The position numbers and the translations under genes are program-made. The notes under the pieces are model-generated. The model made no database searches and was not told the DNA's origin. It worked only from the letters and a program-made list of their open reading frames with translations. DNA of 64,000 bases from Halorhabdus amylolytica (GTDB lineage: Archaea; Halobacteriota; Halobacteria; Halobacteriales; Haloarculaceae), in contig NZ_SPQG01000014.1 of the NCBI RefSeq assembly GCF_004944975.1, forward strand, positions 1 to 64,000, read 5' to 3'. Of the stretch, positions 58,401 to 58,746 are shown in pieces (within the stretch, counting starts at the first letter, position 1; each line of letters starts with the position of its first letter).

Positions 58401-58475
58401 AGCGGGATGGGATAGCTAGGAGATTCCGGCGGGCTCATAACCCGCAGATCGGTGGTTCAAATCCACCTCCCGCTA
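58401..58475 (+). tRNA. Initiator tRNA-Met (CAT)
   Basis: 75 nt. Acceptor AGCGGGA pairs with TCCCGCT, anticodon stem GCGGG/CCCGC contains three G-C pairs characteristic of initiator tRNAs, and the loop CTCATAA gives anticodon CAT. T-arm GGTTCAAATC. No intron; CCA is not encoded. Its last 26 bases are repeated twice just downstream. Confidence 0.95.
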
Positions 58476-58746
58476 CTTCTCAGCGATACACCGACTCGGA
58501 GTTTCGTCTCCGAGTCATGCCGCCTGTGCTGTCGCTATTGTGGATTTGAAGCAGGGAGTGGAGCGGCGCGGAACGACCGTGGTTCAAATCCACCTCCCGC
58601 TACTGTTTTGCTGCGAACAGTTTCGTGAGCAGCAAACCGTGTATGAGTGGAGTTGAACCGGACCGCAAGGGAGGGGAGCGACCGAAGCGGGCGTGGTTCA
58701 AATCCACCTCCCGCTACTTCTGTCGCTCGGAAACAGGCGAGTGACA
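58452..58746 (+). repeat. Three copies of the tRNA-Met 3' end, each with a hairpin
   Basis: The 26-bp sequence ending the tRNA (58452-58477) recurs exactly at 58579-58604 and 58693-58718. Each copy is followed by a different stem-loop: 58493-58516 (GACTCGGAG/CTCCGAGTC), 58607-58636 (TTTGCTGC/GCAGCAAA) and 58721-58746 (9 bp). Before copies 2 and 3 lies a reversed T-arm (58540-58550, 58647-58657). The copies are probably att-site remnants of successive integrations. Confidence 0.9.

Follow-up and report, generated by a model that had tools for sequence, protein, structure and literature searches.

The tyrT repeats of Escherichia coli (rtT RNA) are direct repeats behind a tRNA, each with the last bases of that tRNA. 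Integron attC arrays are built from small tandem units that vary in sequence while conserving a folded single strand, and these arrays show polarity. In haloarchaea, passages in three reports describe ordinary att copies of tRNAs (PMC3119063, PMC7230728, PMC3623002), and a passage on Haloferax gibbonsii LR2-5 describes 11 partial tRNAs, several adjoining a full tRNA, that were called remnants (PMC7921747). Here, we analyzed a 64,000-nucleotide stretch of Halorhabdus amylolytica DNA (the window), and found that its tRNA-Met locus is an array of modules belonging to a haloarchaeal family.

Results

An array of folded modules behind tRNA-Met

Reading the repeating unit from the same tRNA-Met locus across seven genomes of the genus, we identified the order tail, H1 hairpin, anti-T, a tip rich in tandem G.A steps, and next tail. 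The anti-T is the reverse complement of the T-arm of the module's own tRNA; with the T strand of the tail it closes one long hairpin, whose tip consists of short stems between GA/GA steps. The tRNA-Met locus comprises:

58401-58475, + strand: tRNA-Met(CAT), initiator-like, whose last 24 bases are the tail
58452-58477, + strand: tail copy 1 (24 nt of tRNA plus CT)
58481-58537, + strand: H1 of module 1, type B, with an outer CAGCGA arm and an inner 9-bp hairpin at 58493-58516
58540-58593, + strand: anti-T (58540-58550), alpha-class G.A tip, and T-arm strand, forming one long hairpin
58579-58604, + strand: tail copy 2
58607-58636, + strand: H1 of module 2, a tandem-GA hairpin
58647-58707, + strand: anti-T, delta-class tip, and T-arm strand of module 2
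58693-58718, + strand: tail copy 3
58721-58746, + strand: H1 of a truncated third module
58759-58776, + strand: decayed anti-T in the truncated module 3, matched in alignment by a complete module of a congener (G006)

The tRNA has A1-U72 and three G-C pairs below the anticodon loop, which fit an initiator; ARAGORN calls it one base longer than 58401-58475. A first-pass annotation had described the last 26 bp of this tRNA as exactly repeated twice. The two repeats, starting at 58579 and 58693, are indeed exact, but the 26-mer shared by 58452-58477, 58579-58604, and 58693-58718 consists of 24 tRNA bases and a CT that lies beyond the tRNA. The 24-mer tail occurs three times on the + strand of the 64-kb window and not on the - strand.

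As also described there, a stem-loop follows each of the three tails (58493-58516, 58607-58636, and 58721-58746), and a reversed T-arm stands ahead of copies 2 and 3 (at 58540 and 58647). The three stems comprise, in order, 9 bp, 8 bp followed by GA/GA, and 9 bp with one G.U; their z-scores are -4.95, -2.56, and -4.54 when folded as RNA, and -4.67, -1.97, and -2.95 when folded as DNA. The reversed T-arms pair with the tails to 58593 and 58707, respectively, with RNA z-scores of -4.74 and -4.61. DNA following tail copy 3 aligns with a complete congener module as far as the decayed anti-T, which makes the third hairpin part of a truncated module. The proposal of a functional unit is partly supported: a unit is conserved, though it is not a tail plus hairpin, but a tail, H1, anti-T, G.A tip, and tail.

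On the - strand, an ORF at 58535-58834 encodes a repeated GGGFEPR peptide that is the antisense translation of the tails. ORFs of this kind, antisense to tails, may be wrongly annotated as proteins.

Modules have a median unit length of 124 bp, hold no gene, and frequently show a GNA loop in their tips; the alpha class, the best defined, has the order GG-GA-GT-GGA-GC-GNA-GC-GGA-AC-GA-CC. Each one combines a variable sequence with a conserved structure, ends in a copy of the tRNA from T-loop to discriminator, and holds an inverted T-arm. GNA loops and sheared tandem G.A steps form very stable DNA minihairpins, and are found in RNA too. The archaeal kink-turn, or L7Ae site, consists of tandem G.A plus a three-base bulge. 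We set aside a kink-turn/L7Ae reading of the modules, since paired bases flank GA/GA and the folds contain no three-base bulge, although the GA-hairpin scan itself demands paired bases on both sides of GA/GA. We also set aside a bulge-helix-bulge splicing motif, prompted by a passage in PMC7714728: the internal loops are about 3 by 4 as judged by eye.

A second array behind tRNA-Arg(CCG)

The window contains a second array, comprising:

63578-63650, - strand: tRNA-Arg(CCG)
63456-63577, - strand: tRNA-Arg module with GA hairpins, an anti-T from 63538 down, and a diverged tail at 63475-63456
60857-61008, - strand: displaced tRNA-Arg module with a partial tail from 61008 down, H1, and an anti-T from 60950 down

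The displaced module has a beta tip, and its closing tail ends at 60857. About 2.4 kb (61009-63455) separates the first module from the partial tail and second module; this stretch holds a VCA0040-like (PF04018) gene and small ORFs without a Pfam match, and appears to have been inserted into the array. In a congener (G004, locus L030), the second tRNA-Arg module sits much closer behind the tRNA.

The modules form a haloarchaeal family

The 58540-58593 hairpin is the top match of R1, a covariance model of the alpha class. R1 matches 269 of the 292 genomes in the class, representing 73 of 77 genera (E ≤ 0.001), and a tRNA of the same orientation immediately precedes 29 of the 30 best R1 loci. 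When 392 genomes of the phylum were searched, about 311 of which lie outside the class as inferred from the order in which they are listed, 66 had an R1 match at E ≤ 1e-6, all within one order. An exact-pattern scan of GTDB contigs identified 58 matches at 54 loci, all with haloarchaeal titles. A tRNA lies upstream within 700 bases in 52 of the 58, and 12 isotypes are represented; no tRNA was found for the other six, two of which have fewer than 130 bases upstream. In the 64-kb window, no Rfam family besides tRNA scored over its gathering threshold, and only two tRNAs were matched.

Two loci depart from the usual layout. L101 (genome G108) has a strong R1 match and an adjoining valine-type tail with no tRNA called by ARAGORN; its tRNA is possibly broken or intron-bearing. 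At G015:C1:514871-515044 (L187), two full tandem tRNA genes stand 101 bases apart before a module, a whole-tRNA duplication with module-like spacing.

Modules are frequent behind tRNAs and fitted to each of them

Other tRNAs share this layout, both across haloarchaea and within the H. amylolytica genome, with modules tuned to each tRNA. We scored a tail copy as a match of at least 16 of 20 to the tRNA's last 20 bases in the downstream flank. By this measure, a copy of the tRNA's own tail lies downstream of 20 of 42 tRNAs in this genome, versus 7 of 1428 in a swapped-tail control and 1 of 42 on the antisense strand; behind several of the other 22 tRNAs, a module is present with a decayed tail. 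Members of two other haloarchaeal families gave 20 of 40 (G039; control 5 of 1304) and 6 of 41 (G015; control 5 of 1364), with 7 of 88 regions unparsed and left out (three in G015 and four in G039) and, in G015, the second of two tandem tRNAs not assigned a separate region. An outgroup from the same phylum has no tail copy behind any of 40 tRNAs (of 46), with a control of 2 of 1322. Alanine, cysteine, and isoleucine tRNAs have no tail copy in any of the three haloarchaea surveyed.

Anti-Ts match their own tRNA at 574 of 671 positions summed over 61 modules (one of 62, containing an N, was dropped), compared to 497 (s.d. 6.4) for permuted tails, and none of 2000 permutations reaches the observed value. 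Of the 60 loci in this test, 18 were picked by similarity; the 42 from this genome were not.

Compensatory changes maintain the hairpins

Across nine alpha hairpins, 94.7% of cells are paired and 7 of 19 pairs have changed on both sides; none of 500 shuffles reaches this covariation, and shifting the partner destroys the signal. Among 52 public alpha modules that follow a tRNA, 34 have GT/AC as their inner two base pairs and 18 have AC/GT, with no mixed case. In tRNA-Thr(CGT) modules, the first pair after GA is kept in 46 of 46 cases (shuffled mean 28.0, maximum 36), with 1 of 24 distinct spacers off pattern and locus L276 counted despite its wrong register. For the beta class, the RNAalifold consensus yields just six pairs because its variable stems align poorly, and we therefore used the alpha class for the covariance model.

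These data bear on the idea that ordinary tRNA-targeting elements were successively integrated and lost, leaving att scars with hairpins that arose by chance or decay. The partial tRNA-Arg tail at 61008, separated from the first module by about 2.4 kb, agrees with such a history, as do four tRNA-Thr arrays without a recognizable tRNA, where the 3' acceptor strand alone is present (described below). Yet scars show neither compensating hairpins nor an inverted copy of the T-arm, and have no consensus shared across the class. In the relatives compared, moreover, the hairpins are kept in place, being neither absent nor random. The first-pass annotation's argument that plain att duplication does not account for hairpins of conserved position is therefore upheld by the compensating changes in related genomes. 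Covariation strongly disfavors the scar explanation, which we consider very improbable.

One strand matters, with mismatches that hint at DNA

Modules could instead be a structured trailer RNA, co-transcribed with the tRNA and folding from the sense strand, with the free acceptor-strand copy and G.A hairpins taking part in pre-tRNA processing, acting as a decoy, or being released as a small RNA. Modules that can be placed lie downstream on the tRNA strand (the 29 of 30 best model loci and 52 of 58 pattern matches above), and their hairpin design is kept across genera. One strand also matters: we counted 85 distinct GA-flanked hairpins behind tRNAs versus 26 flanked by the complement TC, with other dinucleotide flanks giving CG 12 and GC 7 (both of which can pair), AT 2, and the remainder 0.

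If the fold acts as RNA, then G.U is expected as the favored mismatch. This pattern is seen in the acceptor stems of the tRNAs at these loci, with 8 G.U, 1 A.C, and 1 other of 340. The GA hairpins have 4 G.U, 4 A.C, and 14 others of 448, and the anti-T stems of 99 modules passing a register filter have 23 G.T, 29 A.C, and 60 others of 792 (Fisher p versus tRNA stems 0.0015 and 0.00025, respectively). Module stems thus lack the wobble preference of tRNA stems, which hints at DNA rather than RNA, although the mismatches are few and their pattern equals that of random decay. Occupancy is also patchy for a trailer RNA (6 of 41 to 20 of 40 tRNAs), and T-run counts, taken as a terminator sign, are not enriched after arrays and so give no hint that a transcription unit ends past them. 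On balance, a trailer RNA is the main rival to the DNA-based reading developed below and stays close to it, a serious possibility that we nonetheless hold to be doubtful.

Among the functions first suggested for the unit, a recombination site would fit best; the T-run counts lend no support to a terminator.

Arrays differ between genomes, and some modules look old

Different tRNAs share modules: comparing the 200 bases that directly follow each tRNA of this genome, we found 52 of 861 pairs alike, versus 2 of 861 for the 200 bases before the tRNAs. Two strains of Haloferax gibbonsii carry different modules at one plasmid tRNA-Met, and congeners differ in module order and number. Arrays are also polar: where the first and last tails are unequally preserved, the one adjoining the tRNA is the better copy in 16 of 18 arrays (p 0.0013) and the worse in 2, with 30 further arrays equal, in a set of loci gathered partly by similarity and so not an unbiased sample. 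Gene conversion declining with distance could also account for this polarity.

At a tRNA-Lys of genome G044 (L093), four identical 111-bp units stand in tandem. This array and the symmetric mismatch spectrum fit a purely mutational origin, in which slippage and unequal exchange multiply units and template switching at inverted repeats keeps the anti-T equal to the T-arm without selection. Such processes leave the first origin of the modules, their G.A tips, and their spread to unlike tRNAs unexplained, and we regard a mutational origin as quite improbable.

In 24 of 292 genomes, spanning 12 genera and 3 families, and in the congener G003 as well, the modules of tRNA-Thr(CGT) have an insertion in common (TTCACAATC for TTCAAATC), while their hairpin tips differ. 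Entry at the T-loop with a TTCACAATC tail would spoil the tRNA, and these units therefore look old and vertically kept; the shared insertion speaks against rapid module turnover. The tRNA-Thr array of G076 (L268/L276) has two modules with unlike tips, each with the TTCACAATC tail; a tail can thus pass from one module to the next instead of being taken from the tRNA.

In a survey of tRNA-Thr arrays, no tRNA was found at 6 of 31 places. Four tRNA-Thr(CGT) arrays (L255, L259, L260, and L273) have no recognizable tRNA just upstream and retain only the 3' acceptor strand (CCCTCCACCGGCT), which adjoins other DNA; elements have apparently integrated between tRNA and array.

Searches of phages and plasmids with the locus returned, among the matches listed, mostly tRNA-Met itself, with the exception of two Haloferax gibbonsii plasmids. 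Two patterns found no module in IMG/VR viral contigs. For the 20 tRNAs with a tail copy, none of the 13 Phage_integrase matches in this genome is found within 50 kb on the same contig. These two negative results count against the cassette reading developed below.

A further possibility is that the modules are selfish single-strand hairpin repeats moved by a HUH (Y1) transposase, in the manner of REPs or PATEs, with the anti-T guiding them to the tRNA by base pairing. Strand-specific hairpins, the lack of coding capacity, and copies shared across loci agree with this, and the genome has two Y1_Tnp matches, one containing a stop. Both lie on contigs other than that of the window (C5 and C25, versus C6), however, and REPs are not known to be linked to tRNA ends with exact tail copies. 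In favor of this reading, transposase-free palindrome-associated elements are described in Haloquadratum (PMC3119063). Overall, we judge mobilization by a Y1 enzyme to be improbable.

Discussion

Our best reading, which we advance tentatively, is that the modules are att-like, strand-folding DNA cassettes entering at the tRNA T-loop. They would be non-autonomous. Like many att sites, the T-arm consists of a short inverted repeat whose halves flank a loop, here of 7 bases; in a single strand, pairing of the anti-T with the T strand would recreate a double-stranded copy of the att half-site, and the folded strand would be topped by a G.A-stacked tip, like an integron attC hairpin. A tyrosine recombinase or a HUH enzyme might then place the folded strand beside the tRNA; the tRNA would be made whole again by the tail brought in, with its former tail left as the end of the module. 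Tail exchange at entry would account for a boundary set sharply at the discriminator base, for the polarity of the tails, and for the fit of the anti-T to each tRNA. A more specific version, in which haloarchaea possess an attC-like system of folded single-strand cassettes, with tRNA T-arms as attachment sites and the anti-T as both second strand and tRNA address, we hold to be rather unlikely.

If real as described, the modules are a class-wide non-coding element behind up to half of the surveyed haloarchaeal tRNA genes, so far annotated, where noticed, as tRNA remnants. They would represent either a new folding-based targeting of tRNAs by DNA cassettes or a new class of tRNA-trailer RNA, with relevance to tRNA annotation and to spurious ORFs across such repeats.

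The nearest known system is E. coli tyrT/rtT, which shares with the modules direct repeats behind a tRNA that hold the tRNA's last bases. Here, by contrast, many tRNAs are involved, in haloarchaea, and the units contain an anti-T and G.A hairpins; the Rfam RtT model gave no match at the gathering threshold in the window, nor at E ≤ 5 in 58350-61400. Integron attC arrays share the tandem arrangement of small variable units, the keeping of structure over sequence (seen here as covariation), and polarity. Unlike integron cassettes, the modules contain no gene and their sites are tRNA T-arms. No integrase was found at the array, as judged by Pfam Phage_integrase rather than an IntI model, and the attC R'/R'' core boxes (GTTRRRY) are absent by eye, the module core reading GGTTCRAAT.

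Duplications of att sites by tRNA-targeting integrases likewise copy the 3' part of a tRNA downstream, with a boundary at the T-loop, but they lack the median 124-bp units, conserved hairpins, and anti-T seen here; no element with a Phage_integrase match lies between or beside the tail copies of the 20 tRNAs (50 kb, same contig). REP/BIME elements and the PATEs of Haloquadratum (PMC3119063) are also short, non-coding palindromic repeats, whereas the modules sit at tRNA ends and are fitted to the individual tRNA, and no REP-type mobilizer is nearby, both Y1_Tnp matches being off the window's contig.

The partial tRNAs of Haloferax gibbonsii LR2-5 are probably, in part, the same objects as our modules; the passage that describes them mentions no hairpin, anti-T, or family (PMC7921747), and the same is true of the passages on ordinary att copies (PMC3119063, PMC7230728, PMC3623002). 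A search of open-access PMC literature, with subscription papers and supplements outside its scope, returned no description of the module. On the basis of that open-access literature, we consider the module family to be new, as each known family tested differs from it in at least one defining feature.
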